From Dechloromonas sp. (GTDB taxonomy: Bacteria; Pseudomonadota; Gammaproteobacteria; Burkholderiales; Rhodocyclaceae): a stretch of 54,339 bases of DNA. Position numbers and translations under genes: made by a program. Location of the stretch: contig JAQTXC010000015.1 in assembly GCA_028689015.1 (NCBI GenBank), positions 1 through 54,339 on the forward strand, written 5' to 3'. Within the stretch, counting starts at the first letter, position 1, and each line of letters begins with the position of its first letter. This document shows, piece by piece, positions 658-53,702 of the stretch. Below the pieces are notes generated by a model, which searched no databases, was not told where the DNA came from, and saw nothing but the letters and a program-made list of their open reading frames with translations.

Positions 658-2519
658 GCAGGGCTTTCGGGGGCGATCTGGCGGGTTTTCAGGGGTTGGA
701 AGCGCAGCCGGATGCGCGTGCCGTGGCCGACCCGGCTGTCGATTGTCAGTTGGCCGTCCAGAATATGAGCCCGGTCGCGCATGATGCTGGTGCCAAAGTG
801 ATTGGCGGGAATTTGGTTGGGGTCAAAGCCGCAGCCGTTGTCGCTAATTTCGATTTTGACGCTGTGGTCGTCGTCGACCGCAATGGCGATTTCGGCGGCC
901 GTGGCGCTGGCATGGCGCTCGATATTGCTGAGCGCCTCACGGATGATGCGGATGACGTGCATTTCCTCGTTGGCCGAGAGGACGATGCCGGCCAGGGTGT
1001 TGTGCAGTGCAACCGGGAAATCCAGTTTTTCTGAAAACTCGGTGATGGTTTCCTGCAAGGCGGCATTGAAGCCCCGTTCATCGATGCGCAGCCGGAAGGT
1101 GGTAATCAGTTCGCGCAATTCACGGTAGGCGGTATTCAGCCCGTTCTTCAATTCTTCGGCAATGGTCCGCGCGTCACAGCCTTGGTCGATGCATTTTTCC
1201 AGGCGGGTAACCTGGATTTTCAGGTAACTGAGCGATTGGGCGATTGAGTCGTGCAGTTCGCGGGCGATGACCGAGCGTTCTTCAAGCACGGCCAGACGAT
1301 GTTTTTCTTCGGCGCGCCGCATGTTGCTCAAGGCATTGGAAACGTGGTGACCAACCGTTTCGATAATGCGTGCTTTGTCACGGGGCAGGCCGGCCGGGGA
1401 TTTGAGGAAAATGGGCATGCTGCCGCGCAGGCCCTTGCCGTCACCGATCGGGACGCAGACGACAGGCGATGTCAGGGCTTGCTGGTGGAGCGCTTGCTGC
1501 GAGTTTTCAAAACATTGTCCGCAATCATGTTGACCGCAAAGGGCTTGTGTTTCGTCGCTATCGAGGCTGCTGACGACCGGGTGGGCGGGTAACTGGCCGT
1601 TTTCGCTGATGCAGACCATGCTGTGGCCGAGTTCCAGCGCGTCTTCGATGTCTTTGAGCACGGCCTGCACATTGTCCAGCGTCAGGTCGTTGGCTGAAAG
1701 TTGCTGGCTGGTCCGGTACAGCAGTTCCAGTGATTGGTTGGTGCGCGTTAGTTCGCGGGTTTTTTCATCGACCTTGTCTTCCAGATGGGCATACATGTTG
1801 GCGATTTCGGCCACCATGGTGTTGAAAGCCTGGCCGAGTTGGCCCAGTTCGTCGTCGCTCACATGGCGGACGCGAACGGTGAAACTGCCTTGCGAGACGC
1901 TGTGCGCGGCCTTGAGCAAGTGGGCCAGCGGCTGAACCAGTTGCCGCCGCAGCATCCAGCTGGTGATCAGGCTGAGCAGGATGATGAGGCCAAGCAGGAT
2001 GAATTGGGTAATACGCAACCAGCGCACCTTGCGTTCGAGGTCCTCTTCGATCAGGCGGACGACGTGGTCGATCTGGTCGACAAAGCCGGGAATGTCGTCA
2101 GCCATTTGAATCAGCGCATCGCTATTGCCATCAATCGCCGCCCGCGCCAGCGGGCGAATATGTGCTGTCCAGCGTTCGGTGACGACACGGATGGCATCGG
2201 CCGATGGGCTCGTAGCGTCCGATTTGGCCACGATGAAGCGTTCCAGACCCAGCAGACGCCGTTCAAATTGCTCAATGGTTTCCTGGGCTTGGGTGCGGCG
2301 GTTGATTTGCTGAACTTCGCTCAGGGTGCGAAAGCTCATCATGCGCAGCGAGCCAGAGACATTAATGGCGGCTGCCTTGCCGCTGATGTTTTCAGCGATG
2401 ACCGTTGAAATGACGATGGACAAAAAAGCCAGCAGGGCCAGGGTGCCCATGGCGAGGCCGAGACGGACCAGGACGGATGCGCGCAGGGCACGGGATGCGG
2501 CTTGCAGGAAGGGGGTCAT
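654..2519 (-). CDS. narX: Nitrate sensor histidine kinase NarX
   Basis: Membrane sensor kinase of 621 aa, near the usual NarX length of about 600. The first transmembrane segment (about 15-42) is followed by a periplasmic nitrate-binding P-box, GKAAAINVSGSLRMMSFR, typical of NarX/NarQ. A second transmembrane segment (about 168-190) leads into a HAMP domain. The cytoplasmic linker has a cysteine cluster (CGQHDCGQCFE), as in the NarX central module. Then come a HisKA_3 dimerisation helix with the phospho-histidine in ARELHDSIAQSLSYLK and an HATPase domain (SDNGCGFDP). The gene is divergent from napF and precedes narL with a 4-bp overlap. It should sense nitrate/nitrite and phosphorylate NarL. 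Confidence 0.9.
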   Translation of the reverse strand: MTPFLQAASRALRASVLVRLGLAMGTLALLAFLSIVISTVIAENISGKAAAINVSGSLRMMSFRTLSEVQQINRRTQAQETIEQFERRLLGLERFIVAKSDATSPSADAIRVVTERWTAHIRPLARAAIDGNSDALIQMADDIPGFVDQIDHVVRLIEEDLERKVRWLRITQFILLGLIILLSLITSWMLRRQLVQPLAHLLKAAHSVSQGSFTVRVRHVSDDELGQLGQAFNTMVAEIANMYAHLEDKVDEKTRELTRTNQSLELLYRTSQQLSANDLTLDNVQAVLKDIEDALELGHSMVCISENGQLPAHPVVSSLDSDETQALCGQHDCGQCFENSQQALHQQALTSPVVCVPIGDGKGLRGSMPIFLKSPAGLPRDKARIIETVGHHVSNALSNMRRAEEKHRLAVLEERSVIARELHDSIAQSLSYLKIQVTRLEKCIDQGCDARTIAEELKNGLNTAYRELRELITTFRLRIDERGFNAALQETITEFSEKLDFPVALHNTLAGIVLSANEEMHVIRIIREALSNIERHASATAAEIAIAVDDDHSVKIEISDNGCGFDPNQIPANHFGTSIMRDRAHILDGQLTIDSRVGHGTRIRLRFQPLKTRQIAPESPA

Positions 2520-2643
2520 CGCGAGTCATCCGGGTAAGCCGTCGGGGCATTTGGCGTAGGCCAGGTTAACAGGGTGAGCGGCAGTGTCTTTTCCATCCGA
2601 TTGATTTTACGGCAAAAACTTTTGTCCGTTGCTGGCTTTGGCC

Positions 2644-2659
2644 TACCTATTTGGAGGTA
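2644..2659. promoter_or_regulatory. NarL/NarP 7-2-7 binding site upstream of napF
   Basis: TACCTAT-TT-GGAGGTA is two inverted heptamers separated by 2 bp. The left one matches TACYYMT exactly and the right one (TACCTCC on the other strand) has one mismatch at the last base. A 7-2-7 arrangement is the known high-affinity layout for NarL and NarP. It lies about 90 bp upstream of the napF start and 125 bp from the narX start, so it could control either or both. Confidence 0.7.
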
Positions 2660-3527: not shown

Positions 3528-6104
3528 ATGACCATGAATCGACGTGATTTCCTGAAAACCCAGGCCGTGGCTGCTGCCGCCGCGACGGCTGGCATTCCGT
3601 TGGCCGCTGAAGCCGCCAAGGCCCCTGCGCACGGCACGACTGAAATCCGCTGGGACAAGGCGGCCTGTCGTTTCTGCGGCACCGGCTGTTCGGTGCTGGT
3701 CGGTGTCCAGAATGGCCGTATCGTCGCCACCCAGGGCGACCCGGATGCGCCGGTCAACCGCGGTCTGAACTGCATCAAGGGCTATTTCTTGTCGAAGATC
3801 CAGTACGGTGCCGACCGCCTGACCAAGCCGCTGTTGCGCATGAAAAACGGCAAGTTTGACAAGAATGGTGATTTCCAGCCGATTTCCTGGAAGGAAGCCT
3901 TCGACATCATGGAAGAGAAGTGGAAAGCCGCGCTCAAGGCCGATATGAAGGCCAATGCCGGTAAGCCGGTGGATCAGATGGGCTCGTCGATCGGCATGTT
4001 CGGTTCCGGCCAATGGACGATCTGGGAAGGTTACGCGGCGACCAAATTATGGAAGGCCGGTTTCCGTTCCAATAATCTGGATCCCAACGCCCGCCATTGC
4101 ATGGCATCGGCGGTGGCTGGTTTCATGCGCACCTTCGGTATTGATGAGCCGATGGGCTGCTACGACGACATCGAGAATGCTGATGCCTTCGTGCTGTGGG
4201 GGTCGAACATGGCCGAGATGCACCCCATTCTGTGGTCGCGTATTACCGACCGCCGCTTGAGCCATCCGGAATCGGAAGTCCATGTGTTGTCGACTTTCGA
4301 GCATCGCAGTTTTGAACTGGCCGACAACGGCATGATCTTCGTGCCGCAGACCGATCTGGCCATTCTCAATTACATCTGCAACTACATCATCCAGTCCGGC
4401 AAGGTGAACAAGGCCTTTGTCGACAAGCATGTCAATTTCAAGATGGGTGAGACCGACATCGGTTTTGGCCTGCGCCCGGCGCATGCCCTGGAAAAGGATG
4501 CAACCAACAACGGTTATAGCGGCGCCGATGGCAAGCCCAAGGGCAATAGTGGTGCGGCCAAGCCGATTACTTTTGATGAATTCAAGAAGTTCGTTGCCGA
4601 ATACACCCTGGAGAAAGTCGCCAAGCTGTCGGGTGTTCCGGCCGAGCGCTTGAAGAAGATGGCTGAGTTGTATGCCGATCCGAAGAAAAAAGTGGTCAGT
4701 TTCTGGACCATGGGCTTCAACCAGCACACCCGCGGCACCTGGGTGAACAACATGATCTACAACGTCCACCTGCTGGTCGGCAAGATTTCGACGCCGGGTA
4801 GCGGTCCGTTCTCGCTGACGGGTCAGCCGTCGGCTTGCGGTACGGCACGCGAAGTGGGGACGTTTGCCCACCGCCTGCCAGCCGACATGGTGGTGACCAA
4901 TGCCGATCATCGCAAGCACACGGAAGAAATCTGGAAACTGCCGGAAGGAACGCTGAACGGCAAGATCGGTTTTCACGCCGTGCTGCAAAGCCGCATGTTG
5001 AAGGACGGCAAGATGTCCTGTTACTGGACTTCGACCACCAACAACATGCAGGCCGGGCCGAACGTCAATGAAGAAATCTACCCGGGCTGGCGTAATCCGG
5101 CGGCCTTTGTCGTGGTCTCTGATTGCTATCCGACGGTGTCGGCGATGGCGGCTGACTTGGTGCTGCCGTCCGCGATGTGGACTGAGAAGGAGGGGGCTTT
5201 CGGTAACGCCGAGCGCCGCACCCAGTTCTGGCGTCAGCAAGTCGCAGCACCGGGCGAGGCCAAGTCCGATCTGTGGCAATACATCGAGTTTTCCAAGCGC
5301 TTTAAGGTCGAGGATGTCTGGCCGGCTGATTTGATCGCCAAGGCACCGCAATTCAAGGGCAAGACCTTGTTTGATGTGCTGTACAAAAATGGTCAGGTGA
5401 ACAAGTTCCCGCTGGCCGAGGTCGAGAAGGTCAATAGCCACGCCATCAAGAGCTACATGAATGATGAATCCAAGGAACTGGGTTTTTATCTGCAAAAGGG
5501 CTTGTTCGAGGAGTACGCGGCTTTCGGTCGGGGGCATGGTCATGACCTGGCCTCGTTCGAGACTTACCACAAGGCACGCGGCCTGCGCTGGCCGGTGGTC
5601 GATGGCAAGGAAACCTTGTGGCGGTTCCGCGAGGGGTATGACCCGTATGTGCCGAAGGGCGAGGACATCCGCTTCTACGGCCACAAGGATGGCAAGGCCG
5701 TCATCTTCGCCCTGCCTTACCAGGATCCTCCGGAAAAGCCGGATAACGAATTTGACCTCTGGTTGTGTACCGGCCGCGTGCTTGAGCATTGGCATACCGG
5801 CTCGATGACCCGGCGCGTACCGGAATTGCATCGTGCCGTACCGGAAGCCGTGGTCTTTATGCATCCTGACGATGCCAAGAAACGCAACCTGCAGCGCGGC
5901 ATGAAGGTCAAGGTCGCCTCACGGCGTGGCGAGATCCAGTTGCGGGTCGAAACCAAGGGCCGTAACAAGCCGCCGATGGGCCTGGTTTTCATTCCCTTTT
6001 TCGATGAGGGCAAGTTGGTCAACAAACTGACGCTGGATGCCACCTGCCCGATCTCGAAAGAGACTGACTACAAGAAGTGCGCTGTGAAGATCGTCAAGGC
6101 CTGA
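3528..6104 (+). CDS. napA: Periplasmic nitrate reductase catalytic subunit NapA
   Basis: Reduces nitrate to nitrite in the periplasm using bis-MGD molybdenum and one [4Fe-4S] centre; 858 aa, normal for NapA. The start is the ATG at 3528, 7 nt after AGGAGG (a second ATG at 3534 is possible; a TTG at 3522 is less likely). The signal peptide carries the twin-arginine motif [19 protein letters not shown] plus the cysteine in LNCIKGYF bind the cluster. The cysteine of NARHCMASA is the expected Mo ligand. The C-terminal molybdopterin dinucleotide domain includes [19 protein letters not shown]. It is flanked by its chaperone napD and the electron-transfer genes napGHBC. Confidence 0.97.
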
Positions 6105-6130
6105 TTTTTGCCAAGAAACGAGCGTCGACC

Positions 6131-6979
6131 GTGACCACCAACCCCACCGCCAAGCCGCAAGGAAAAACCGGCGCGTTGCCCGCATCAACGGCGCGCCGGA
6201 AATTCCTGAACGGGATTGCCGCCGCGGCCGGTGGCGGCGCCCTGCTGACGCTGGCGTCGCTCCTGGTGGCCCGGCCCGCCGCTGCGCAGCCAGCCCAGGC
6301 TTTGCGGCCCCCGGGGGCGATGGCTGAGCAGGATTTTCTCGGCGCCTGTATTCGTTGCGGGTTGTGTGTGCGCGATTGTCCCTACGACACCTTGCAACTG
6401 GCACCTGCCGGTAGCGCAGTGGCCGGGGGGACGCCATTTTTCAATGCCCGTGCGGTGCCTTGCGAAATGTGCGACGACATTCCCTGTGTCAAGGCCTGTC
6501 CGACCGGTGCGCTCGACCCGCAGTTGACTGACATCCACGAGGCCCGGATGGGGCTGGCCGTCTTGTCCGACCACGAAACCTGCCTCAATTTCCTTGGCTT
6601 GCGCTGCGACGTCTGCTATCGCGTTTGCCCGGTCATTGACCAGGCGATCACTTTGGAAAATATCCACAACCCTCGCTCGGATCGGCATGCCATGTTGTTG
6701 CCGACCGTGCATTCGGATCATTGCACTGGCTGTGGTAAATGCGAGAAGGCTTGCGTGTTGCCTGAGGCTGCGATCAAGGTCATGCCGTTGAAACTGGCGC
6801 AGGGTCGTTTGCCGGAGCATTACCGCAAGGGTTGGGAAGAAAAAGCGCGGCACGGCGGCTCGCTGATCGGTGATCAGATCGAGATGCCGGTGCGCGGTCT
6901 GGAGGACAAAGCCTATGGCGATGTCCGCTTGAATGGCGAGGCGGCGCCGAACAGTCTGAACTCGGGGTGGAAGCCATGA
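6131..6979 (+). CDS. napG: Ferredoxin-type protein NapG
   Basis: Periplasmic iron-sulfur protein of 282 aa taking electrons from quinol via NapH toward NapC/NapB. A GTG at 6131 is chosen, 26 bp after napA; earlier in-frame codons run back into napA. The N terminus has a twin-arginine-like RRKFLNG followed by a hydrophobic stretch and an AAAQPAQA-like cleavage region. Four cysteine clusters follow: [43 protein letters not shown] and [11 protein letters not shown]. The stop overlaps napH by 4 bp. The Shine-Dalgarno sequence is weak, so the exact start is less certain than the identity. Confidence 0.9.
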
Positions 6980-7827
6980 CGATCGGTCAGGACGCTATCC
7001 GTACCAAGGGGTGGTTGGGCGCGCATCGTTTTCTCGTTTTACGTCGCTTGAGCCAGTCGACCGTGTTGCTCGCCTTTTTGATCGGGCCGTGGTTTGGCCT
7101 GTGGTGGGTCAAGGGCAACCTGGCGTCGTCGTTGACTTTCGGCGTCTTGCCGCTGACGGATCCCTATCTGTTTGTCCAGACGCTGGCCGCCGGTTTCATG
7201 CCTGCCTCGGCCGCCCTGATTGGGGCCGCCGTGGTGCTTGGTTTTTACGCCTTGCTCGGTGGCCGCTTGTATTGCGCTTGGGTGTGCCCAGTCAATCCGC
7301 TGACTGATCTGGCCGCCTGGTTACGCCGTCGCTGGGGGCTCAAATCGGGGCGTGTGCCGGATTCGGCGACGCGTTACTGGGTGCTGGCGGGTTCCTTGCT
7401 GACCGCTGCTGCAACCGGCACCTTGGTTTGGGAGTGGGTTAATCCGGTGTCTATTTTGCAGCGCAGCCTGATTTTTGGTTTGTCCGGCAGTGTGCTGGTG
7501 GTCGGCGCCGTTTTTTTCTACGACTTGCTGGTGGCCAGCCGGGGCTGGTGCGGTCACCTGTGCCCGATGGGGGCTTTTTATGGCCTGCTGGGGCAGAAGT
7601 CCTTGCTACGGGTGACGGCTCGTCAGCGCTCGGCCTGCGATGACTGCATGGATTGTTTTGCCATTTGCCCGGAGCCGCAGGTGATCCGGCCGGCCCTGAA
7701 AAAAGTAGGTCAGGAGAGCCCGCTCATCCTGGACCGTGACTGTACCAATTGCGGCCGCTGCATTGATATTTGCGGCCGGGATGTTTTCCACTTTACCCAT
7801 CGGTTCGACCAAAGGAGCGATCTATGA
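6976..7827 (+). CDS. napH: Membrane quinol dehydrogenase NapH
   Basis: Integral membrane protein of 283 aa with about four transmembrane segments (near residues 30-50, 75-100, 130-155 and 165-190). Two CxxxCP motifs at membrane edges are seen, [11 protein letters not shown] and GHLCPMGAF. Two C-terminal cytoplasmic [4Fe-4S] clusters are [12 protein letters not shown] and [11 protein letters not shown]. NapH with NapG forms a quinol oxidation branch, usually ubiquinol, though menaquinol is possible given menBC nearby. The ATG at 6976 overlaps the napG stop (ATGA) and is preferred over GTG 6967. The 3' end overlaps napB in the same way. Confidence 0.92.
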
Positions 7828-8311: not shown

Positions 8312-8950
8312 ATGGATAACAAAAACACGCAGGGCGGCGGGTTGACCGCAAAATTGATCGGCTGGGTGAAAACCGTCGGTCCATTGACGGTGGTTGGCCT
8401 GTTTGTCGCCGGCATCGTCTTCTGGGGCGGTTTCAATACGGCCATGGAATGGACCAACCGCGAGGCCTTCTGTATTTCGTGTCACGAAATGAAGGACAAC
8501 GTGTACGAGGAGTATCGCAACACGGTGCATTACTCGAATCGCTCAGGCGTGCGGGCAACCTGTCCGGACTGTCATGTGCCGAAAGAGTGGGGGCCGAAGA
8601 TCTGGCGCAAGATTCAAGCCTCGAACGAGGTGCTGCACAAAGTGCTGGGCAGTATCGATACGCCGGAAAAGTTCAACGCCAAACGCTTGATCCTGGCCGA
8701 GCATGAATGGGAGCGGATGAAGAAGACCGATTCCCGCGAGTGTCGTAATTGCCACAATTACGAGTCCTTTGATTACGGTGTGCAGGGTCGTCGTTCGTCC
8801 AGCATGCACCAGGCCGGTTTTGCCGAAGGCAAGACGTGTATCGATTGCCACAAGGGCATTGCCCACAAGTTGCCGGAAGTGGATCAGTCGATTGGTGCGG
8901 TTAACCAGGACGGTGCAGCGCCTAAGGAATTCCATCCGCCCAGTAAGTAA
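8312..8950 (+). CDS. napC: Tetraheme quinol dehydrogenase NapC
   Basis: NapC/NirT-family membrane-anchored cytochrome c, 212 aa. One N-terminal membrane anchor (about residues 25-48) is followed by four heme-binding motifs: CISCH, CPDCH, CRNCH and CIDCH. It oxidises membrane quinol and passes electrons to NapB. It is last in the operon, so the gene order is F-D-A-G-H-B-C as in Escherichia coli, but without trailing ccm genes. A clear terminator follows. The ribosome site GGAG lies 9-12 nt before the ATG. Confidence 0.95.
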
Positions 8951-10628: not shown

Positions 10629-11837
10629 TCAGGCGTAGGTCGGGGCGAAAGCAGCCTCCGGGTTGCTGACCGGGGCGCCGTCTTTCCAGTAGGGCGACAA
10701 TTTGCGCAGCTGGGCGACGATGGGCGGTACTGCTTCGATCACCCGGTCGACCTCGGCTTCGGTGTTGTAGACCGACAGCGAGAAACGGATGGTGCCGTGC
10801 GCTGCGGTGTAGGGAATGCCCATGGCGCGCATGACGTGCGACGGTTCGAGCGAGCCAGAGGTGCAGGCCGAACCAGAGCTGGCGGCAATGCCCATCTTGT
10901 TGAGCAGCAACAAAATCGCTTCACCTTCAATGTATTCGAAGGCGATATTGCTGGTGTTAGGCAGGCGGTTGCTGACATCGCCAGTCGGGAAGCAGTGACT
11001 GATCTGCGCCAGGATGCCGCGCTCCAACTTGTCGCGCAGGCGCTTAACCTCGGTATTCTCGATCGCCATCTTGTTCATGGCCAATTCGCAGGCCATGCCG
11101 AGGCCGACGATGGACGCAGAATTCTCCGTCCCAGCCCGTCGACCGCGTTCCTGGTGACCACCGCGCAGCAGTGGCCGGAAGCGGCAACCGCGACGCAGGT
11201 AGAGCACGCCGATCCCCTTGGGGGCATGCAGTTTGTGGCCGGACAGCGACAGCATGTCGATCTTGGTGTTCTTCAGGTCGATGGGAATCTTGCCGACAGC
11301 CTGCACCGCATCGGTATGGAACATGATGCCCTTGGCCGAAGCGAGGGCTGCCATTTCCTCGACCGGGAAAATCGTTCCGGTCTCGTTGTTGGCCCACATC
11401 ACCGAGACGATGGCGACCCGGTCGTGCAACAGGGACTTGTATTCGTCCAGGTCGATGCGCCCCTTCTTGTCCACCTTCAATTTGTGGACGATGTAGCCTT
11501 CCTTTTCCAGCCATTCGCAGAGCGTCAGGATGGCCGGGTGCTCGACGTTGGTGGTGATGACCGTGTTGCGATCGGGTTGCGCCTTGAGTGCCGACAAGAT
11601 GGCGGTCGAGTCGGATTCGGTGCCGCAGGAGGTGAAGATGATTTCCGAATCATGCTCGGCACCAATCAACGCCTGCACCTGACTGCGCGCCTTTTTCAGC
11701 GCTTTGCCGACTTCACTGCCAAACGCATGGATCGATGACGCATTGCCAAAATGTTCGGTAAAGAAGGGCAGCATGGCCTCGACCACGGCAGCGTCGCAGC
11801 GCGTGGTGGCGTTATTGTCTAGATAGATCGGTTCCAT
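10629..11837 (-). CDS. nifS: Nitrogenase cysteine desulfurase NifS
   Basis: PLP-dependent enzyme that takes sulfur from cysteine for nitrogenase iron-sulfur cluster assembly on NifU; 402 aa. The N terminus is MEPIYLDNNATT. The PLP lysine is in LSLSGHKLHAPKG and the persulfide cysteine is in SSGSACTSGSLEPSHVM. The start at 11835-11837 follows AAAGGA; longer in-frame extensions run antisense-like through the nifU region and are not real. It is last in the iscA-nifU-nifS operon and is followed by a strong terminator. The NifS rather than IscS assignment rests on the nif context. Confidence 0.93.
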   Translation of the reverse strand: MEPIYLDNNATTRCDAAVVEAMLPFFTEHFGNASSIHAFGSEVGKALKKARSQVQALIGAEHDSEIIFTSCGTESDSTAILSALKAQPDRNTVITTNVEHPAILTLCEWLEKEGYIVHKLKVDKKGRIDLDEYKSLLHDRVAIVSVMWANNETGTIFPVEEMAALASAKGIMFHTDAVQAVGKIPIDLKNTKIDMLSLSGHKLHAPKGIGVLYLRRGCRFRPLLRGGHQERGRRAGTENSASIVGLGMACELAMNKMAIENTEVKRLRDKLERGILAQISHCFPTGDVSNRLPNTSNIAFEYIEGEAILLLLNKMGIAASSGSACTSGSLEPSHVMRAMGIPYTAAHGTIRFSLSVYNTEAEVDRVIEAVPPIVAQLRKLSPYWKDGAPVSNPEAAFAPTYA

Positions 11838-13699: not shown

Positions 13700-14044
13700 T
13701 TAGCTCATGAATTCGGCCAGCACGGCCTCGCCACGCAATTTTTGCGGTCGACCCCAGATTTGTACCGAATCGACATACTTGTTGGTCAGGTCGGGATGGG
13801 GCAGCAGCACCTGGTATTCGGCAAAAATTCGACCATCGGGAAAAAAGGTGGCCTTGCCAAAGCGCGCCTGGCCGCGCCAATAGGCGACGATACTGATTTC
13901 CTGTGAAAAGGGATCGGTCGCTTCCTCGAAGCTTGCCTCGCTCCAGATCGGCTCCAGGCCGATCGACAGACCCAGTTTTTCCACCTGGCCGCGCAGGGCG
14001 GCACAGACTGCTTCGCCGTGCGCGGGGTCGGGGGGACGTTGCAT
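13700..14044 (-). CDS. Unrecognised nif-operon protein downstream of fdxB
   Basis: 114 aa cytoplasmic protein I do not recognise. A short amphipathic helical N terminus is followed by a beta-rich segment (EISIVAYWRGQARFGKATFFPDGRIFAEYQVLLPHP) and the tail VQIWGRPQKLRGEAVLAEFMS. It has one cysteine, no obvious metal site and no membrane segment. The start lies 2 bp after the fdxB stop. Its fixed place in the nifN operon suggests a nitrogenase-related task, but nothing in the sequence states which. Confidence 0.65.
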   Translation of the reverse strand: MQRPPDPAHGEAVCAALRGQVEKLGLSIGLEPIWSEASFEEATDPFSQEISIVAYWRGQARFGKATFFPDGRIFAEYQVLLPHPDLTNKYVDSVQIWGRPQKLRGEAVLAEFMS

Positions 14045-29842: not shown

Positions 29843-29923
29843 GTGGCGGATTTTCGCACGACTTTACGGTCGACCGCCTGAACCAAGGTTTTTTCAGCAC
29901 TAGCCCATCGGATGCAAATAAAA

Positions 29924-32772: not shown

Positions 32773-32825
32773 AGAAACATGTGCTGATGTAGCGCTGGCA
32801 TCTTAGCCGAAATTGCCACCCACTC

Positions 32826-32837
32826 GCGGTCGACCGC
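32826..32837. repeat. Intergenic palindromic copy of the GCGGTCGAC motif
   Basis: GCGGTCGACCGC, the palindromic form of a motif (core GCGGTCGAC, often TTGCGGTCGAC) seen about 23 times here. The core or its complement also starts at 873, 11138, 13744, 16166, 16611, 17709, 22030, 25139, 25493, 26040, 26803, 28599, 29336, 29869, 36503, 36586, 42483, 43720, 43831, 44732, 52203 and 52952. Copies fall in all reading frames and both orientations. This one lies between sulP and fabI. Confidence 0.75.
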
Positions 32838-32858
32838 GAACGCGGGTCGGTTAACGAC

Positions 32859-39753: not shown

Positions 39754-41181
39754 TTATCGACTTGTCGCCTTAAGGTCACCCATTGCCTTGAGATGTGCTT
39801 CGAAGTATTGGGCAGGCCTTATTTTAAGGCGCCGCGAGAGTTCGAGTAAGCGGGGAAAGTCGTCGTCCTCATAAGCAATGACCGATTGCAAAATAGGCCA
39901 TAACGGGTTTGCCGGGTCGGTATAGGCCTGCTGGATGTGCTCGGCAAGCGGCAGGTCGGCCTGCTGCAATTTGGGGAAATGGGCGATGGGCGCCAACAGC
40001 CCGGCCAAGTAGCCTTGTTCGAGTAGGGCAGCCTGCCCCGTTTGCCAAAGAAGATGGTGGACCATGTAGGCCCGTCGGAGCGCCGCCCAGACCACCGGGT
40101 TTGCAGCAATGTTCTGATCAGCGCAATAGAGAGACAGTATCAGCCAACGTCGTAATTCACAGGACCCGGCCAACCGGGCCAGGGTTTCCAGCGAACACTG
40201 CTCGGCGTGTCGGGTCACGGTCAACTGTTGTCCTAGCGCTAAAACCACCTGTTTTAAATCAGGCGTTTTATCCAGCATTCTGACCAGATCCAGCAGACGC
40301 GCTGGTTCGGCAGCTAACTGGCAGAGTGCTGCCAGAGCCTGATTTTGCATGACGGCCGTCACTGGGCGCATGTCTGTGTAGGGGTCAGGATGCAGTGGGC
40401 CCAAGCGATAAAACTTGCCGGGGTGACCCTGGCCGCGATCGTTTTTTTCAACAGCTTTGCTGTTTTTCTCCGGCGATGAGAAAAGCAACTGACCATCGGC
40501 CGCTTCGCTGATTACAAAATCAACATACTGAAGTTTCTCGGGCGGGATCGGCCACGGATAACGACTGCGCAAGGCGATTCGAAAGCCCTGGTTAGTCAGG
40601 TGGGCCAAATCCGCGGGTTCGCTGCCGAACTCGACAGCGCCTTCAGTGAGAATTAGCACGCAGCGCTCGGGCAGGAGAAATTGCTCGGGTTGATGATGTG
40701 CGACATCGTGGGTGATTTCAATAAACAGCCGTTGATCTTCAGTCAGTAGCTGATGGATACAGGATGCGGTGAGGTAGGACTGCAGATCAGCGGCCGCTAG
40801 GGGGATTCCTGAGTCCTCCGGGGTGGCTTCGACCGAGTGCAACGAAAAATAAACGCCCAGGCAAACCGCCGCTGGGTCGACCACGCGCCGCAGGCGAGGT
40901 AGGCCATTCAGGGGGGGGCAGGCGTCGATCAATGTGTTTGCTGATCGTTTGTCGGTCAGCGCTGTGCGTGTTCTATCTCTGATCAGAAAGTCTACCGACT
41001 CCCAACTGATGCGGCGATGTCCGCCTGCCGTTCGCCATGCGCGGAGTAATCCCGCATCCACCCAGTTCTGGATGGTGCCAATTGAGACGCCGAGTTGTTG
41101 AGCGACTTGTCGTGTTGTCCCGCAGTGAGAGGGGAGGGCGCTTTGACTAAGCATCGTGAAATTATTTATCGAATCTATCAT
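39754..41181 (-). CDS. Excisionase-type HTH fused to degenerate EAL and HDOD
   Basis: 475 aa from the ATG at 41181 (a later ATG at 41154 is possible; no ribosome site decides). Residues about 20-70 (TTRQVAQQLGVSIGTIQNWVDAGLLRAWRTAGGHRRISWESV) are a MerR/excisionase helix-turn-helix. Residues about 95-245 resemble a YuxH-like EAL domain with its catalytic residues lost (FIEITHDVAHH, LPERCVLILTEGAVEF, LTNQGFRIALRSRYPWP, VDFVISEA). Residues about 265-465 fit an HDOD-like module. A DNA-binding version of the EAL-HDOD layout is unusual. It is upstream of, and probably co-transcribed with, the HDOD gene at 38534. Confidence 0.75.
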   Translation of the reverse strand: MIDSINNFTMLSQSALPSHCGTTRQVAQQLGVSIGTIQNWVDAGLLRAWRTAGGHRRISWESVDFLIRDRTRTALTDKRSANTLIDACPPLNGLPRLRRVVDPAAVCLGVYFSLHSVEATPEDSGIPLAAADLQSYLTASCIHQLLTEDQRLFIEITHDVAHHQPEQFLLPERCVLILTEGAVEFGSEPADLAHLTNQGFRIALRSRYPWPIPPEKLQYVDFVISEAADGQLLFSSPEKNSKAVEKNDRGQGHPGKFYRLGPLHPDPYTDMRPVTAVMQNQALAALCQLAAEPARLLDLVRMLDKTPDLKQVVLALGQQLTVTRHAEQCSLETLARLAGSCELRRWLILSLYCADQNIAANPVVWAALRRAYMVHHLLWQTGQAALLEQGYLAGLLAPIAHFPKLQQADLPLAEHIQQAYTDPANPLWPILQSVIAYEDDDFPRLLELSRRLKIRPAQYFEAHLKAMGDLKATSR

Positions 41182-42351: not shown

Positions 42352-43563
42352 CTAAAAGGATTGTGCTGCTCGCTGGCCACTGCGGACGGCGCCTTCGAGC
42401 GTTGCTGGATAATCGTGCCAGCTTGCATCACCTGCCAGGCGGATGGCGGGTGAGGTGGTTTGCCAGCGTGGGCGAGGCGTTTGCGGTCGACAGGAAAAGG
42501 TGGCCCTTTTTTCCCGAATGCAGCGCTGCCAGTGCACGGGGCCGGTCAGACCCATTTCAGCCTGCAGAGTGGTGGCGAGTTGGTCATCGGTGAGCTTTTC
42601 CCAGTCGCCGTGACCGCTGAGGACACAGGCCAGTAGACCGTTACCACGGTCGACGACCCACTGGCCGACTTTTCCTGAGGCGTTGTAGAGCGGGTAAGGC
42701 AAGGTGGTTTTGGCCGAAAACTGCAGGTAGACCGTGGCAATCGGTTCGTAAGCCGTGGGCAACTCGGTGTCGGGCCATAGGCGTGCCAGGTGCTGTGGTG
42801 CGACGGCCAGAATGGCACCATCGAAGGCCTGTCCATCAATCTGCACGCCGCTGGAATCGCTGCTCAGATGCTGGACGCGGTGGCTAAAATGCAATGTCGC
42901 GCCATGGGCTAGCAGCCAACGACAGGCGGGATCAGGGAGTAGTTCGCTGAGCGTGTCACGCGGTAGCAACAGATCCGTGTCGCTGGCGCGTGTGCTGCCC
43001 AGGCTGTCACGCAGGACATGGGCAAAAAGTTGCGCCGAGGCGTGTTCGGCCGGGGTGTTCAGCGCCGCGAGGCAGAGCGGCTCCCACAGGTGATGACGCA
43101 GTTGGCCGGTCTGGCCTGCGGCATCCAGCCAGGCACTGACCGTCAATTGCGGATCTACCTTGAAACGCCGCCATTTCAGCCCCTGCATCCAGCGGGCTGT
43201 CTTGATTTTTTCCCGTGCCTTAACCGGGTGGGCGCGCAGCAAGCCCCAGGCGACATGCCAAGGGGCCGGCCACTGTGGCAGGGTCAGTTTAAATCCGGTG
43301 CTGTCGCTGATCTGCAAGGGGTGGCGAATGAGCAACTGGTCCGGGTCGGCACCGACTTGGCGCATCAGGGCCAGTGTATTGTGGTAAGCGCCAAGCAGGA
43401 TGTGCTGGCCGTTATCAAGCCGCCGGCCATCGATCTCTACCGCCCGCGCCCGACCACCGGCAACGCGCCCGGCCTCGAATAGCGTGACGCTTGAGCCGCG
43501 CCGAATGAGTTCAACGGCCGCGGCCAGTCCGGCCCAGCCGGCGCCAACCACCGCGATCTGCAT
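42352..43563 (-). CDS. hpnE: Hydroxysqualene dehydroxylase HpnE
   Basis: 403 aa FAD-dependent amine-oxidase-fold protein. The FAD site is QIAVVGAGWAGLAAAVELIRRGSSVTLFEAG, with the family's GRARAVEIDGRRLDNGQHILLGAYHNTL next and a C-terminal AIRLAGDASWHDYPATLEGAVRSG. In the HpnCDE route it reduces hydroxysqualene to squalene. It starts 3 bp after the hpnD stop and ends the operon. Older annotation calls such proteins squalene-associated desaturases or phytoene desaturases. Confidence 0.92.
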   Translation of the reverse strand: MQIAVVGAGWAGLAAAVELIRRGSSVTLFEAGRVAGGRARAVEIDGRRLDNGQHILLGAYHNTLALMRQVGADPDQLLIRHPLQISDSTGFKLTLPQWPAPWHVAWGLLRAHPVKAREKIKTARWMQGLKWRRFKVDPQLTVSAWLDAAGQTGQLRHHLWEPLCLAALNTPAEHASAQLFAHVLRDSLGSTRASDTDLLLPRDTLSELLPDPACRWLLAHGATLHFSHRVQHLSSDSSGVQIDGQAFDGAILAVAPQHLARLWPDTELPTAYEPIATVYLQFSAKTTLPYPLYNASGKVGQWVVDRGNGLLACVLSGHGDWEKLTDDQLATTLQAEMGLTGPVHWQRCIREKRATFSCRPQTPRPRWQTTSPAIRLAGDASWHDYPATLEGAVRSGQRAAQSF

Positions 43564-43566
43564 CGC

Positions 43567-44400
43567 TCAGCCCTTGATCCAGGTTTTGGCGGCGAGCCAG
43601 AGCTTGCGGACCGGGGTGAGCGAAATGCGTTGATGTAGAACCTGGAAATTCTCGGCCTTGATTTCTTCAAGCAGGGTGCGATAAATCGCTGCCATGATCA
43701 GGCCGGGGCGCTGGCTCTTGCGGTCGACGGCCGGCAGCTGGGCAAATGCCTGTTCGTAGTAACGCTGTGCACGTTCGTACTGGAATTGCATCAGCGCCGT
43801 GAAATTGTCCGAATACCTGGCGTTGAGGATGTCGACCGCTGGAACGTTGAATTGCTTCAGTTCGTCCATCGGAATATAGATTCGGCCGCGCCGGGCATCC
43901 TCACCGACATCACGGATGATGTTGGTGAGTTGGAAAGCCATGCCGAGGTCGTGCGCGTATTTCTGGGTTTGCCGGTCTTGGGTACCAAAAATTTCGGCGG
44001 CGAGCAGGCCGACGACGCTGGCGACCCGGTAGCAATACAGCGAGAGTCCCTTGAAGTCGAGGTAGCGCGACTGTTGCAGGTCCATCTCCATGCCGTCGAT
44101 GATCTCGAGTAACTGTTCGCGTGGCAAGCTGATGTTACGGGTAACCCGCATCAGGGCCTGGCCAACCGGGTGCTGCGCTTCCCCTTGCGCTACACGGTCC
44201 ACTTCCTGGCGCCACCAGGCCAGTTTGGTCGAGGCGAGGGCGATATCCTCACATTCGTCGACCACGTCATCGACTTCGCGGCAGAAGGCATACAGGGCCA
44301 TGATGGCCTGCCGGCGTTCCGGTGGCAGGAAAAGGAAGCTGTAATAGAACGAGGAGCCGCTGGCGGCGCACTTCTCCTGGCAGTATTGGTCTGGATTCAT
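43567..44400 (-). CDS. hpnD: Presqualene diphosphate synthase HpnD
   Basis: 277 aa trans-isoprenyl diphosphate synthase of the squalene/phytoene synthase family. The two aspartate-rich motifs are DDVVDECED (about residue 45) and DVGEDARRGRIYIP. It couples two farnesyl diphosphates to presqualene diphosphate. The start MNPDQYCQEKCAASGSSFYYSFLFLP at 44400 is typical of HpnD; a longer frame overlaps hpnC. It lies between hpnC and hpnE in the order C-D-E. Confidence 0.92.
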   Translation of the reverse strand: MNPDQYCQEKCAASGSSFYYSFLFLPPERRQAIMALYAFCREVDDVVDECEDIALASTKLAWWRQEVDRVAQGEAQHPVGQALMRVTRNISLPREQLLEIIDGMEMDLQQSRYLDFKGLSLYCYRVASVVGLLAAEIFGTQDRQTQKYAHDLGMAFQLTNIIRDVGEDARRGRIYIPMDELKQFNVPAVDILNARYSDNFTALMQFQYERAQRYYEQAFAQLPAVDRKSQRPGLIMAAIYRTLLEEIKAENFQVLHQRISLTPVRKLWLAAKTWIKG

Positions 44401-44404: not shown

Positions 44405-45214
44405 TCACATTGTAAGCGAGCGACCGGCCAGCCGCAGCCAGTCCCACGTGCCCAAGGTCGGGCGATGCCGGAAAACATCGCCGCGGGCGAGGCGGATACG
44501 TTCGAGAATGCGCAGCCCGCCTTGTACGGTCAGGCGAATTTCCCAGCCAATACGGCCGGGCAGGGTATGCACCAGCGGGCTGCCCAGCTGGATCAGTGAG
44601 CGTGCCCGATCGGTCTGAAAATCCATCAGCGCCGCCCATTGGGCCGACGAGCGGCTGCTAGCGATGTCATCCTCGCCGATGCGAAAGCGGGCCAGGTCAG
44701 TTTGCGGCAGATAAATTCGGGCTTTTTGCCAGTCGACCGCAACATCCTGCCAAAAATTGATCAATTGCAAGGCGCTGCAGATGGCATCGGATTGTGCCAG
44801 CTGGCTTGCGCTGGTTTGCCCGCACAGGTGCAAAACGAGGCGACCGACCGGGTTGGCCGAACGCCGGCAGTAGTCGAGTAGCTGAGGATAATCAGCATAG
44901 CGGGTCTGCACTACATCCTGGGCAAAGGCATCGAGCAGATCGTGAAACAGCGCGAGCGGTAAATGATGTTCGGCGATGACGGCTGCCAGATCAACGAACA
45001 GCGCCGTTTGTGGCGGCATGCCAGCGGCAATGCGCTCAAGTTCAGCCTGATAGGCGGCCAGCTCGGCCAGGCGCATCGCCGGATCGGCATCGCCCTCATC
45101 GGCGATATCGTCAGCGCTCCGCGCAAAGCGGTAAATCACCTCGATGGGGTGGCGTAGTCGGGCTGGCAAAAGCAGCGAAGCGACCGGAAAATTTTCGTAA
45201 TGATCGACAGGCAT
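44405..45214 (-). CDS. hpnC: Hydroxysqualene synthase HpnC
   Basis: 269 aa squalene/phytoene synthase family protein. It has FARSADDIADEGDA and INFWQDVAVDWQKARIYLP as the two metal-binding motifs. HpnC turns presqualene diphosphate into hydroxysqualene, which HpnE then reduces. The start MPVDHYENFPVAS at 45214 is the typical HpnC N terminus; a 9-residue longer frame is less likely. It is the first gene of hpnCDE, 53 bp from the divergent tRNA-Leu. A squalene-hopene cyclase gene is not in the window. Confidence 0.9.
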   Translation of the reverse strand: MPVDHYENFPVASLLLPARLRHPIEVIYRFARSADDIADEGDADPAMRLAELAAYQAELERIAAGMPPQTALFVDLAAVIAEHHLPLALFHDLLDAFAQDVVQTRYADYPQLLDYCRRSANPVGRLVLHLCGQTSASQLAQSDAICSALQLINFWQDVAVDWQKARIYLPQTDLARFRIGEDDIASSRSSAQWAALMDFQTDRARSLIQLGSPLVHTLPGRIGWEIRLTVQGGLRILERIRLARGDVFRHRPTLGTWDWLRLAGRSLTM

Positions 45215-45433: not shown

Positions 45434-46423
45434 TTAACGCAAGCCCAGCACTTCGCGCATGAATTGCGCTTGTGGCAGCCGAAATCCTGCGGCGTTGCGG
45501 TGACCGCCGCCGCCGTAGCGCTGGGCGATGGCGGCCACATCGAAAGGGCCGTTCGAACGGAGCGAGACTTTGATGTCGCCATCTGCGGTCAACTGCCAAA
45601 TCAGGCCAAAAGTCGCCGAGCGCTGTGCTAGTTGATGACCGAGCTCAGACGCAAATAAGGCATTGGCGTTGACGGCCAGGCCGTGGATTGCGTGCCATTG
45701 CAATGCTTCCTGGACGATGTAGTCCTGACCGTGGCGGCGGGCTTGCAGCATATCCAGCGGCTCGCCGCGCAGACGGGCCAACATCGGCAAGGCGCCGTCG
45801 ACCATACGGTCAACCTCGCATTGCAGGAAATTTTCAATCGCCTGGCCACCGAGGATCATCTGGCGGTAGCTGGGCAAGGCGGGGTCGGCTGTCTCGGTGA
45901 GTAAAAGATCCCAGCGGGCAAAATCGAATGCCTGCAGGCGCAATGCCCGGCAAAAGGGCCGAGTGTCTGCCCGGGAGAAGTGCCACAGATCCTGATCTTC
46001 AATATGTGCCAGCAGCAAAGGCAGCGGGAGGAGTGGATGAAAATATTCCCAAGCCAGGCGAGCGCCGGATTTCTGTAGGTTGAAAATCAGGGTCAGCCGC
46101 TGTTCGTGGTCAACCAGTTGCTCAAGGCCGTTGCCATCACATTGCAAACGATCAGCCCACGGCGCGCGGGCGGTGACGTGGTGGTCGATCAGGATGATTT
46201 GCCGGGCAATCGCACTCAGTGCCAGCAGGATGGGCGGTGGAAAAGAGAAATCGAGGATGAAGACTTGGTGGCCGCGAAGTCGGGTGGTGTCCCAGTACTC
46301 GCCATGATGAAGTGGCAGGTAGCTTGCGTTGTCGCCAAATCGCTTCCAAGCAGCAAAAGCGGCGCCGAAGCCATCAAGGCAATCGGCGTGGTAGATCACC
46401 GTGATAGGCGAGGGGCTGGACAT
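45434..46423 (-). CDS. DHH-family phosphoesterase
   Basis: 329 aa. An N-terminal DHH domain has YHADCLDGFGAAFA and ILDFSFP then LIDHHVTARAPW (the DHH motif), all for metal binding. A C-terminal DHHA1 domain ends in YGGGGHRNAAGFRL. It could be a nano-RNase/pAp phosphatase-like or a related phosphoesterase; RecJ is larger, so it is not RecJ. The start overlaps the slyX stop by 1 bp (TGATG), so the two are coupled. Confidence 0.83.
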   Translation of the reverse strand: MSSPSPITVIYHADCLDGFGAAFAAWKRFGDNASYLPLHHGEYWDTTRLRGHQVFILDFSFPPPILLALSAIARQIILIDHHVTARAPWADRLQCDGNGLEQLVDHEQRLTLIFNLQKSGARLAWEYFHPLLPLPLLLAHIEDQDLWHFSRADTRPFCRALRLQAFDFARWDLLLTETADPALPSYRQMILGGQAIENFLQCEVDRMVDGALPMLARLRGEPLDMLQARRHGQDYIVQEALQWHAIHGLAVNANALFASELGHQLAQRSATFGLIWQLTADGDIKVSLRSNGPFDVAAIAQRYGGGGHRNAAGFRLPQAQFMREVLGLR

Positions 46424-49798: not shown

Positions 49799-50158
49799 AT
49801 GTCCCGAGTTAAACGTGGTGTAACAGCGCGCGCGCGTCACAAAAAGGTTCTTGCCCAGGCCAAGGGTTATCGCGGTCGCCGCAAGAACGTTTATCGGATC
49901 GCCAAGCAGGCGGTGATGAAGGCTGGTCAATACCAGTATCGTGACCGTCGTCAGCGGAAGCGTCAGTTCCGTTCCCTGTGGATCGCTCGTATCAATGCGG
50001 CAGCTCGTGAGCTGGGTATGAAGTACAGCACCTTCATGAACGGTCTGAAAAAGGCCAACATCGAAGTTGACCGTAAGGTTCTGGCCGATCTGGCCGTCTT
50101 CGATCAGCCGGCATTTGCCGCGCTGGCCGCCCAGGCCAAGGCACAGCTCGACGCCTGA
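49799..50158 (+). CDS. rplT: 50S ribosomal protein L20
   Basis: 119 aa, [39 protein letters not shown], the normal L20 sequence and length. It builds the 23S rRNA domain I and also represses its own operon in several bacteria. A strong terminator follows. Confidence 0.98.
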
Positions 50159-50231: not shown

Positions 50232-51296
<1,065 letters not shown>

Positions 51297-51317
51297 TCCC
51301 CTTTTCGAGACAAGCCC

Positions 51318-53702
51318 ATGAAATTTTCTGAATCCTGGTTGCGTACCCTCGTCGATCCCAAGCTGACGAGCGAGGAACTCTCTCATTTGCTGACCATGGC
51401 CGGCCTCGAAGTCGAGGATTTGTCGCCGGTTGCTCCCCCGTTCAATCAGGTCGTTGTTGCGCAGGTGCTCGAAGTCGTCAAGCATCCGGATGCCGACCGC
51501 CTCAATGTCTGCCAGGTCGACATCGGCCATGGGGTGGTGCAACAGATCGTTTGCGGGGCGCCGAATGTGGCTGCCGGCCTTAAAGTGCCGTGTGCCTTGC
51601 CTGGTGCTGAATTACCGGGCGATTTCAAGATCAAGATTGCCAAGGTGCGGGGGATTGAGTCCTCTGGCATGTTGTGTTCCGCCAAGGAGCTCGGCATTGC
51701 CGAGGAGGCGGCCGGCCTTCTGGTTCTGCCGGCTGATGCGCCGGTGGGGCAGTCGATTCGACACTACCTCGAACTCGACGACCATGTGTTCGAAATCAAG
51801 CTGACGCCGAATCGTGCCGACTGCCTGTCATTGCAGGGAATTGCCCGCGAAGTCGGTGCCATTACCGGCAGTTCGACCTGTTTGCCGCTGATTGGCGAGG
51901 TGTTGCCAACGACGACCGAGCGTCGGACGGTGCTGCTGGACGCTCCTGAGGCTTGCCCCTTGTATTGTGGTCGCGTCATTCAGGGCGTCGATGCCAAGGC
52001 CGTAACGCCGGAATGGCTGAGGCGGCGTCTTGAGCGCAGCGGCATTCGTTCGATTTCGGCACTGGTCGACATTACGAATTATGTGATGCTCGAGCTGGGT
52101 CAGCCGCTGCATGTTTTTGACAACGCCAAATTGGACGGTGCGGTGCATGCGCGCCTGGCGCGGCCAGATGAGCAACTGCTGTTGCTGAATGCGCAGACGG
52201 TTGCGGTCGACCGCGATATTTTGCTGATTTCCGACGACGTCAAGGCGCTGGCCATGGCCGGCATCATGGGCGGCGAGGAGAGTGCCGTGACGCTGGAAAC
52301 GACAGAGCTCTTCCTGGAGTCGGCCTTCTTCGCACCGAAAGCCATTGCTGGCCGAGCCCGTCGTCATGGGTTTTCATCGGACGCCTCGCATCGCTTCGAA
52401 CGCGGTGTTGATTTTGGCAGCACCCGCCGCGCGATTGAGCGGGCGACGCAACTGATCGTCGATCTGTGCGGTGGTCAGGTCGGCCCTGTGGTTCAAGCAC
52501 AGGCTGATTTACCGAGCCGCCCCGCTGTTCGTTTGCGCACGGCGCGCGCTGAAAAAGTGCTCGGTCTGACGCTTGGCTCAAAGCGCATTGCCGAGTTGTT
52601 CACTGGCCTGGACTTGGCCTTCGAGCAGCAGGGCGACGATTTCCTGGTGACGCCGCCCAGCTGGCGTTTCGATATGGAAATCGAAGAGGACCTGATCGAG
52701 GAAATCGCCCGTCTGTACGGTTACGACAATATTCCTTCGCAGGCACCGCAAGGTCGTCTGGCCATGATGCGCCAGCCGGAGGCACAGCGCCCGGTGTACC
52801 GCATTCGTCAGATGCTGGCGGATCGCGGCTATCAAGAGGTTGTTAATTTCGCTTTTGTCGAAACCGATTGGGAAGCCGACTTTGCCGGTAAAACGACCGA
52901 AAATGACCTCATTCGACTGGCTAATCCCATTGCCAGCCAGATGGCTGTCATGCGGTCGACCTTGTTTGGTGGGCTGATTGCCAATCTAGTCACCAACTTG
53001 AAGCGCAAGCAGAATCGTGTCCGACTCTTTGAAGTAGGCCGCACTTTCCATCGTGATACGGGGGATCAAGCCTTGGCTGGCTTCCGTCAGCCGTGGCGCC
53101 TGGCTGGGCTGGCTTTTGGTGGTGCCTTGCCCGAAAGCTGGGGCAGTGGCGCGCGCAAGGTCGATTTTTACGACCTCAAGGGCGAGATCGAAGCACTCTT
53201 GGCGCCCGCCATCTTGCGTTTTGAAGCCTGTTCGCATCCAGCGCTGCACCCGGGGCGTGCGGCCTGCATCCTGCTGGACGGGCGGGAGATTGGTTGCCTG
53301 GGCGAATTGCATCCGGAATGGATGCAAAAATACGAGTTGACCGCGGCACCCTTGTTGTTTGAACTTGAATTAGAGGCCCTGAAGGCAGCGGTCGTGCCCG
53401 CTTATATTGAAGTTTCGAGGTTTCCGGCTGTCGTGCGCGATCTGGCCGTTGTGGTCGACCGTGACCTGACGCTGCAAGCCCTTTTCGACGGCCTGAAAGA
53501 GGGCTTGCCCCCCTTGGTCAAGGACTTGCAATTGTTCGATGTTTACGCCGGAAAAGGCGTTCCTGAAAACAAAAAAAGTCTTGCGCTACGGATAGTTATG
53601 CAAGATACTCAACGCACTTTGCTAGATTCGGAAGTCGATGCTGCCGTGCAGCAATTGATCGCCAATCTTGAGCAGCAGTTCAGTGCTCAATTGCGAGCCT
53701 GA
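51318..53702 (+). CDS. pheT: Phenylalanyl-tRNA synthetase beta subunit
   Basis: 794 aa, the usual bacterial length. An EMAP-like tRNA-binding domain near residues 40-150 ([18 protein letters not shown]) is followed by the B3/B4 editing region, B5, the catalytic-like core ([18 protein letters not shown]) and a C-terminal anticodon-binding fold ([25 protein letters not shown]). Two copies of the GCGGTCGAC motif are in this gene. Confidence 0.98.

Follow-up and report, generated by a model that had tools for sequence, protein, structure and literature searches.

Why should a single nine-letter word, GCGGTCGAC, recur in both orientations, within and between genes, along 54 kb of DNA from Dechloromonas sp. 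(GenBank assembly GCA_028689015.1, contig JAQTXC010000015.1, positions 1 to 54,339; this whole stretch is hereafter the window)? Uptake sequences are named for two families, Pasteurellaceae and Neisseriaceae, in the accounts drawn on here, and the word is probably part of an uptake signal sequence for natural transformation in a third lineage, with a layout like that of the Pasteurellacean uptake signal sequence (USS); by pheT the relatives of the host are Azonexus and Dechloromonas, placing it outside the Pasteurellaceae in which USS are hosted. This reading of what is termed here the Azonexus element is supported by its density, strand neutrality, sharp core, helically spaced A/T tracts, dialects, and patchy distribution limited to one genus.

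Exact copies of GCGGTCGAC number 25 over both strands of the window (54,339 nt), at 23 places, compared with a mean of 0.83 and a maximum of 5 in 100 dinucleotide shuffles and an expectation of 2.9 under an order-3 Markov model derived from the window, bearing out an earlier note on this DNA that had counted about 23 copies where composition predicts about one. The 11-mer TTGCGGTCGAC occurs 8 times against 0.05 expected, exact at all eight places which that note had named, those at 873 and 44732 being minus-strand copies. Two of the 9-mer sites are full palindromes, as had also been read, counted here on each strand (32826/32829 and 52203/52206); the first is intergenic, with flanking called genes that end at 32772 and 32914. 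Across the host genome (2,870,055 bases, 86 contigs), GCGGTCGAC is found 477 times forward and 510 times reverse, in total 987 or one per 2.9 kb, within the rate of one per 2–3 kb that the earlier note had named as supportive, whereas its reversed-letter control is found 37 + 31 = 68 times.

The composition of the core was resolved in 389,340 bases of host DNA (20 stretches plus the window; 13.6% of the genome), where GCGGTCGAC occurs 139 times against some 20–24 expected, and where A at position 1 (68 copies) and A at position 7 (66 copies) each exceed an expectation of about 10; the remaining single-letter changes lie near expectation, with the biggest numerical excess for C at position 4 (30 versus 14). 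Positions 1 and 7 thus accept A or G, and the core is written RCGGTCRAC, with 306 copies, 159 on one strand and 147 on the other, distributed over 278 places at a mean spacing of 1.27 kb; 49 copies lie in the window, eight of them outside called genes. Roughly one copy per kb over the whole genome, in both orientations, is the genomic signature of uptake sequences, and the Azonexus element displays it.

Alignment of the host sites places a pyrimidine before the core, a weaker A/T block at +14..+17 and a strong block at +25..+29, the latter 78% A/T at 304 sites versus 42% after 1339 control words NCGGTCNNN, with no marked conservation beyond about +31. Distances from the core centre to the first and second blocks are approximately 10.5 and 22 bp, so that the core and both blocks share one face of the helix. 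Scored as core + N16 + WWW, the full pattern has 1726 copies in the host genome (control 21), divided 864 versus 862 between the strands. Both tracts are clear in 242 sites of G206, a relative with a complete chromosome, and in 238 sites pooled from 16 further motif-rich genomes; the first block is strong in G206, with A at 0.43–0.53 across +14..+17. The 9-mer of the earlier note is accordingly real and was understated, but is only part of a longer unit, the degenerate core and distant A/T tract having been missed. The copies in the window are given below by span, strand, core and the number of A/T letters among the five at +25..+29.

853..881, minus strand: core GCGGTCGAC at 873-881 with tract, A/T 5/5
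1509..1537, minus strand: core GCGGTCAAC, A/T 4/5
6104..6132, minus strand: core ACGGTCGAC, A/T 5/5
7036..7064, minus strand: core ACGGTCGAC, A/T 4/5
8321..8349, minus strand: core GCGGTCAAC, A/T 5/5
11118..11146, minus strand: core GCGGTCGAC, A/T 4/5
13744..13772, plus strand: core GCGGTCGAC, A/T 3/5
16146..16174, minus strand: core GCGGTCGAC, A/T 4/5
16611..16639, plus strand: core GCGGTCGAC, A/T 4/5
17706..17734, plus strand: core ACGGTCGAC, overlapping an opposite core, A/T 5/5
17689..17717, minus strand: core GCGGTCGAC, overlapping an opposite core, A/T 0/5
18051..18079, plus strand: core GCGGTCAAC, A/T 5/5
18064..18092, minus strand: core GCGGTCAAC, A/T 4/5
19354..19382, minus strand: core ACGGTCAAC, A/T 4/5
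22030..22058, plus strand: core GCGGTCGAC, A/T 3/5
22738..22766, minus strand: core GCGGTCAAC, A/T 4/5
24704..24732, minus strand: core ACGGTCAAC, A/T 4/5
25139..25167, plus strand: core GCGGTCGAC, A/T 5/5
25473..25501, minus strand: core GCGGTCGAC, A/T 4/5
26040..26068, plus strand: core GCGGTCGAC, A/T 5/5
26803..26831, plus strand: core GCGGTCGAC, A/T 3/5
28599..28627, plus strand: core GCGGTCGAC, A/T 3/5
29336..29364, plus strand: core GCGGTCGAC, A/T 5/5
29866..29894, plus strand: core ACGGTCGAC, overlapping an opposite core, A/T 5/5
29849..29877, minus strand: core GCGGTCGAC, overlapping an opposite core, A/T 4/5
31058..31086, minus strand: core GCGGTCAAC, A/T 5/5
31223..31251, minus strand: core GCGGTCAAC, A/T 2/5
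31739..31767, minus strand: core GCGGTCAAC, A/T 3/5
31946..31974, minus strand: core ACGGTCGAC, A/T 2/5
32826..32854, plus strand: palindromic core GCGGTCGACCGC, intergenic, A/T 4/5
32809..32837, minus strand: opposite half of the 32826 palindrome, A/T 4/5
36503..36531, plus strand: core GCGGTCGAC, A/T 4/5
36586..36614, plus strand: core GCGGTCGAC, A/T 4/5
40217..40245, plus strand: core ACGGTCAAC, A/T 4/5
42483..42511, plus strand: core GCGGTCGAC, A/T 5/5
42646..42674, plus strand: core ACGGTCGAC, A/T 4/5
43720..43748, plus strand: core GCGGTCGAC, A/T 4/5
43811..43839, minus strand: core GCGGTCGAC, A/T 4/5
44712..44740, minus strand: core GCGGTCGAC, A/T 5/5
45585..45613, plus strand: core GCGGTCAAC, A/T 4/5
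45806..45834, plus strand: core ACGGTCAAC, A/T 5/5
50046..50074, minus strand: core ACGGTCAAC, A/T 4/5
50824..50852, plus strand: core ACGGTCAAC, A/T 4/5
50994..51022, minus strand: core ACGGTCAAC, A/T 4/5
52203..52231, plus strand: palindromic core in pheT, A/T 4/5
52186..52214, minus strand: opposite half of the 52203 palindrome, A/T 4/5
52952..52980, plus strand: pheT element present in most motif-rich genomes of the tree, own A/T 3/5
53316..53344, minus strand: core GCGGTCAAC, A/T 3/5
53434..53462, minus strand: core ACGGTCGAC, A/T 1/5

The tract is tied to the core with little tolerance: at least four A/T letters of five follow 0.719 of the 306 perfect cores, compared with 0.122 of 680 one-mismatch and 0.106 of 5207 two-mismatch cores. 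When the tract is required, 220 perfect cores stand against 83 with one mismatch, the one-mismatch class lying at approximately the background rate, a preponderance of perfect copies that belongs to the signature of uptake sequences.

Whether codon or dipeptide preference could generate such a series as a by-product was assessed on 328 genes, called by us from open reading frames and codon scores and not taken from a published annotation. Synonymous-codon shuffling of each gene predicts 45 coding cores, with a maximum of 63 over 200 shuffles, whereas 254 are present (one of which falls in two overlapping gene calls), an excess beyond codon usage such as uptake sequences exhibit. Same-strand frame 0 is commonest (111/254), as codon preference would favour; nevertheless all six classes of frame and orientation exceed the shuffle, 53 of the 306 cores (17%) are intergenic where noncoding DNA makes up 14%, and the A/T tract is found in the larger codon-frame classes and at intergenic sites alike. 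Codon usage as the cause is ruled out by the shuffle together with the frame-independent tract, leaving this explanation virtually no probability; the earlier claim that copies lie in all codon frames and do not reflect preferred codons holds, and neither of the outcomes set against it there, counts near a codon-aware background or restriction to one frame, is observed.

Dense, genome-wide motifs are also known from chromosome segregation and recombination, where KOPS and Chi are strand-polarised. In 20 stretches spread over the G206 chromosome, cores occur in every stretch (4 to 19 per 20 kb), the G-rich strand having 118 and the C-rich strand 124, and polarity relative to replication is therefore not evident; the contigs of the host are equally balanced for the full pattern. 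A strand-directional motif of this type, although it would account for the density and spread, is disfavoured by the lack of strand bias and by scarcity in 36 of 76 species of the genus, and its likelihood is close to nil, the polarised form being ruled out by the strand neutrality of G206.

The nearest known sequences are the USS of the Pasteurellaceae, above all those of Apl type (ACAAGCGGT(C)) and Hin type (AAGTGCGGT), which have GCGGT(C) in common with the core of the G dialect. The layout matches USS features as described in PMC1626085, PMC7811141 and PMC12616744: USS uptake depends on GCGG, aided by bent A/T tracts (PMC7811141), and USS have dialects by subclade (PMC1626085), as the Azonexus element does. 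Two A/T-rich segments lie 3' of the core at about helical spacing, and the tract-to-tract distance of 11–12 bp is retained. The USS core ANNNGCGGT itself is not reproduced by RCGGTCRAC, in which purines are tolerated at two positions. As far as sequence can tell, the Azonexus element appears to behave like a USS.

The Neisseriaceae, hosts of the DNA uptake sequence (DUS), are betaproteobacterial, as is Azonexus, and the DUS resembles the Azonexus element in genome-wide density and species dialects. It is described as an uninterrupted 10- to 13-letter motif whose core is CTG (PMC1626085, PMC12616744), without flanking motifs (PMC1626085), whereas the Azonexus core lacks CTG and distant tracts are present. 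Failing the core definitions of both families, the element is a member of neither the Pasteurellacean nor the Neisserial sequence family.

HIP1 (GCGATCGC) of cyanobacteria, a highly iterated and over-represented plain palindrome, is a further short motif scattered over coding DNA, and an analogous over-representation could mark sites recognised by an orphan methyltransferase or a restriction-modification system. With G at position 7 the core centre GGTCGACC does read as a palindrome, and double cores, overlapping in opposite orientation, occupy 28 of the 278 places. These account for 56 of the 306 occurrences; the other 250 are directional, with a distant tract on one side, unlike HIP1. Bipartite methylase targets are not known to be as long as a core plus distant tract, and the A/T tract, 16 bases beyond the directional core, disfavours a methylation site, though no search for methylases was made; we hold this explanation to be decidedly improbable. 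Of the three candidates offered in the earlier note, the DNA-uptake-type sequence is supported, whereas the methylation target and the chromosome-segregation motif are disfavoured.

Searches of the open-licence literature returned no paper joining 'DNA uptake sequence' with Rhodocyclaceae or 'uptake sequence' with Dechloromonas; 'natural transformation' with Azonexus returned, by title, only snail gut genomes and a Neisseria pilus factor, while the matches listed for broader searches, a review on plastic waste among them, included no report on this genus, and those listed for the exact 9-mer were unrelated by title. The accessible part of PMC5217627 reports spaced motifs and mentions neither Azonexus nor Dechloromonas.

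Within the genus, the full pattern divides 76 genomes into 40 rich (412–2072 copies; 133–601 per Mb) and 36 poor (11–183 copies; 3–70 per Mb), the cut at 100 per Mb being our choice within the gap from 70 to 133, with named strains on both sides.

Rich: Azonexus fungiphilus DSM 23841, 1571 copies
Rich: Azonexus hydrophilus ZS02, 1495 copies
Rich: Azonexus sp. R2A61, 2072 copies
Rich: Dechloromonas denitrificans ATCC BAA-841, 1169 copies
Poor: Dechloromonas agitata is5, 31 copies
Poor: Dechloromonas hankyongensis, 38 copies
Poor: Dechloromonas sp. CZR5, 31 copies

Beyond the genus, the maximum is 41 full-pattern copies in the family (146 genomes, 67 genera; control 12) and 35 in the order (198 genomes; control 59). 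In some other families the 9-mer by itself is over-represented (G056, 211 versus 51; G047, 428 versus 194), where the full pattern has just 8 and 10 copies, respectively. A quick tree from pheT alone, covering 63 of the 76 genomes and not to be read as a species tree, places poor species inside groups of rich ones. The trait requires 12 changes on it, six or more of them by well-supported branches, compared with a shuffled mean of 20.9. Five of the 36 poor genomes, sampled at 80 kb each, contain 5–13 cores with A/T of 0.36–0.51 at the tract position, and no comparable alternative dialect was found there among 8- to 10-mers, although a sparse motif could escape 80 kb; the top words, for example CCTGCTCG, look to us like codon words.

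This distribution bears on the possibility that the element is the binding site, in some species, of a DNA-bending chromosome-organising or nucleoid protein, kept by selection on chromosome structure. A core with A/T tracts at helical spacing would suit a bending protein, as would copies in all 20 stretches over the G206 chromosome, yet 36 of the 76 species in a single genus have few copies and sit among the rich ones in the tree, and an 11-kb contig of the host holds no copy. The tract, furthermore, accompanies the exact core and hardly the one-mismatch core, whereas a relaxed consensus is said to be usual at regulatory sites (PMC1626085). Such a role is unlikely, if less so than the other alternatives considered here.

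The preferred letter at core position 1 differs between species, constituting dialects: A is found at 33% of host sites, 80% in G206, 66% in A. fungiphilus and 8–56% in 15 others, which contribute 2 to 27 sites each (2 to 306 across rich genomes), a span of 0.08 to 0.80 between rich genomes. Differences between rich and poor genomes can be followed at a single site in pheT, a gene which has 46 cores in the 35 rich genomes of the tree versus 8 in the 28 poor. The site at 52952 of the window is present in 24/35 rich and 2/28 poor genomes; where the peptide M-R-S-T is encoded, arginine is CGG in 25/31 rich and 2/14 poor genomes, and CGC or CGT in the others (counted by hand; Fisher p = 4e-5, uncorrected for kinship). 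All but one of the 28 poor genomes align here without gaps, most differing by few substitutions such as CGC for CGG, indicating that marked and unmarked copies of this old site differ by a synonymous point change and not by an insertion. A very short mobile repeat, inserted many times, would explain numerous near-identical copies, but is contradicted by this gap-free site and by marked conservation that ends at about +31; its probability is very small.

Marked DNA may also be seen to move. In the poor genome G210, which has a contig equal to one of the metagenome-assembled genome HJP_bin19, element copies are clustered: a 13.9-kb segment (C14:81588-95442) is 97.5% identical to A. fungiphilus C9:75287-89167, reaching 99% over the 6.4 kb searched, and a second stretch (95037-99059, 4.0 kb) is 97.6% identical to another A. 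fungiphilus place, compared with 86% identity between the two genomes in the conserved pheT region. The 64 kb examined contain 23 cores, 13 in the first segment (at 82726-92958), one in the second and nine in the remaining 46 kb, so that the transferred-looking segment appears to carry its marks along. Further local clusters were observed in this genome on C10 (4614-13502 of stretch L259) and C14 (10059-10587 of stretch L258), one of which covers genes that look to us like those of cobalamin synthesis. Conversely, the host contig C14 (1-10995, 11 kb), encoding CusA/CzcA-family efflux genes, has 0 cores versus 8.6 expected, the lowest of 21 stretches, and absence of the tag may help to spot recently acquired DNA of this kind.

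Machinery for DNA uptake is present in the host genome: ComEC, divided between two contig ends with a 127-bp overlap; ComEA, on contig C20; and, on contig C46, a cluster of type IV pilus minor pilins comprising a ComP_DUS-type pilin, a GspH-type FimT pilin, PilV (its match falling short of the curated cut-off), PilW, a protein in the PilX place that matches no family, and PilY1. Across the genus, ComEC is found in 71/76 genomes and ComEA above the curated cut-off in 67/76. The minor pilin ComP is known as the receptor for the Neisseriaceae DUS; the search for ComP-type receptors proposed in the earlier note is uninformative here, since the ComP_DUS pilin family (PF16732) is present in 138 of 150 family genomes and was set aside as a marker of the system.

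A FimT-type minor pilin is the candidate receptor that we propose, from its sequence and modelled fold. The host protein has a GspH domain, and its model (pLDDT 81, from a 15-row alignment) has its best fold match in Pseudomonas aeruginosa FimU (E 1.3e-5). Homologues align in 10 rich and 5 poor genomes with the C-terminal consensus GGQxRMCDP, in which only G, C, D and P are invariant. Legionella FimT is described as binding DNA through a GRxR tail (PMC8897410), which the Azonexus segment resembles in place, with one arginine where the Legionella motif has two, and which occurs in both rich and poor genomes; ComN/PpdA, a pilin of the FimT class, is given as the predicted USS receptor (PMC12616744). 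A second minor-pilin-like cluster in the host (contig C66; 8819-13128 of stretch L221) closes with a protein of 725 aa that matches nothing in Pfam or NCBIfam; this protein is in none of the 75 other genus genomes, and the cluster therefore cannot serve a shared motif.

Within the genus, the comEC gene is cut at the same place in G235 (C1:2218844-2220637) and G002 (C33:109737-111533) by stretches of about 32–34 kb that start with a large serine recombinase (PF00239, PF07508, PF13408), and the match of a comEC fragment in G018 begins at the same residue; comEC looks like an attachment site of serine-recombinase stretches. Broken comEC was rejected as the cause of motif poverty, with 7/31 poor versus 3/38 rich genomes affected, a trend only (p = 0.10); seven genomes that gave no match, or in which a contig end truncates the gene, are excluded from the tally, and five of the ten 'broken' calls (G005, G028, G035, G214, G245) are based on the match table alone. 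Elsewhere in the host, C17:1-1960 holds a CRISPR array of 28 repeats containing GTTTCAATCCACGCCCCC, followed by small open reading frames that we take to resemble cas2, cas1 and cas4.

Several observations weigh against an uptake sequence. The first A/T tract is weak in the host genome and, by our comparison with positions in PMC1626085, is separated from the core by about 6 bp more than in USS. Raw one-mismatch cores outnumber perfect ones (680 versus 306), the opposite of published USS; the Azonexus host, unlike that of USS, is a GC-rich betaproteobacterium, and high GC content gives numerous chance one-mismatch copies. Cores altered at positions 1, 2 and 7 retain tract enrichment (0.27, 0.24 and 0.53), and the core is hence not absolute. 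Nor is the machinery complete in every motif-rich genome: ComEA above the cut-off is absent from 5/40 rich genomes (G015 and G244 being rated 100% complete) and 4/36 poor, and comEC is interrupted (G002), split (G008) or truncated by the match table (G214) in 3/38 rich genomes, while an apparently whole comEC is kept by 24/31 classifiable poor genomes. None of FimT, ComEA, ComEC and PF16732 distinguishes rich from poor genomes, FimT-query matches occurring in 74/76 genomes irrespective of class; given this and the gaps in ComEA and comEC, the receptor is put forward as a proposal and the machinery is not seen whole everywhere. Finally, G210 derives from a metagenome-assembled genome in which a chimeric contig is conceivable, and the case is silent on the route of transfer.

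On the uptake reading, the motif would raise DNA uptake through a DNA receptor on the cell surface, for which a DNA-binding minor pilin of the type IV pilus, possibly the FimT-type pilin, is the likeliest identity. It would prefer double-stranded DNA marked by T-Y-RCGGTCRAC followed by A/T tracts at one and two helical turns, and the tracts would help to bend or open the DNA while the pilus draws a loop of it across the outer membrane. Fragments so marked would be imported more frequently and recombined into the chromosome; this biased uptake would spread chance matches, and the genome would consequently fill with copies. These would be kept where the encoded protein tolerates them, giving about one per kb in both orientations and all frames. 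Species that lost or changed the preference would lose their marks through mutation, so the motif-poor species may once have had the motif.

A more far-reaching proposal, which we regard as tentative and hold to be somewhat doubtful, is that free-living Azonexus/Dechloromonas are a third home of self-DNA recognition, in which a FimT/ComN-type pilin reads a CGG-centred core and two phased A/T tracts allow kinking, sequence-specific uptake having arisen at least twice from this class of pilin, and dialect changes and losses marking gene exchange. If true, dialect changes and tag losses within one genus would show which species exchange genes. As an apparent third case of uptake sequences, the Azonexus element has a Pasteurellacean-like layout, comes in several dialects, and belongs to an environmental genus in which 40 marked species stand next to 36 with few marks, both groups including named strains in culture. 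With marked and unmarked sister species, direct tests would become possible, outside animal-associated bacteria, of convergence, of receptor specificity and of how the tag affects gene flow between species.

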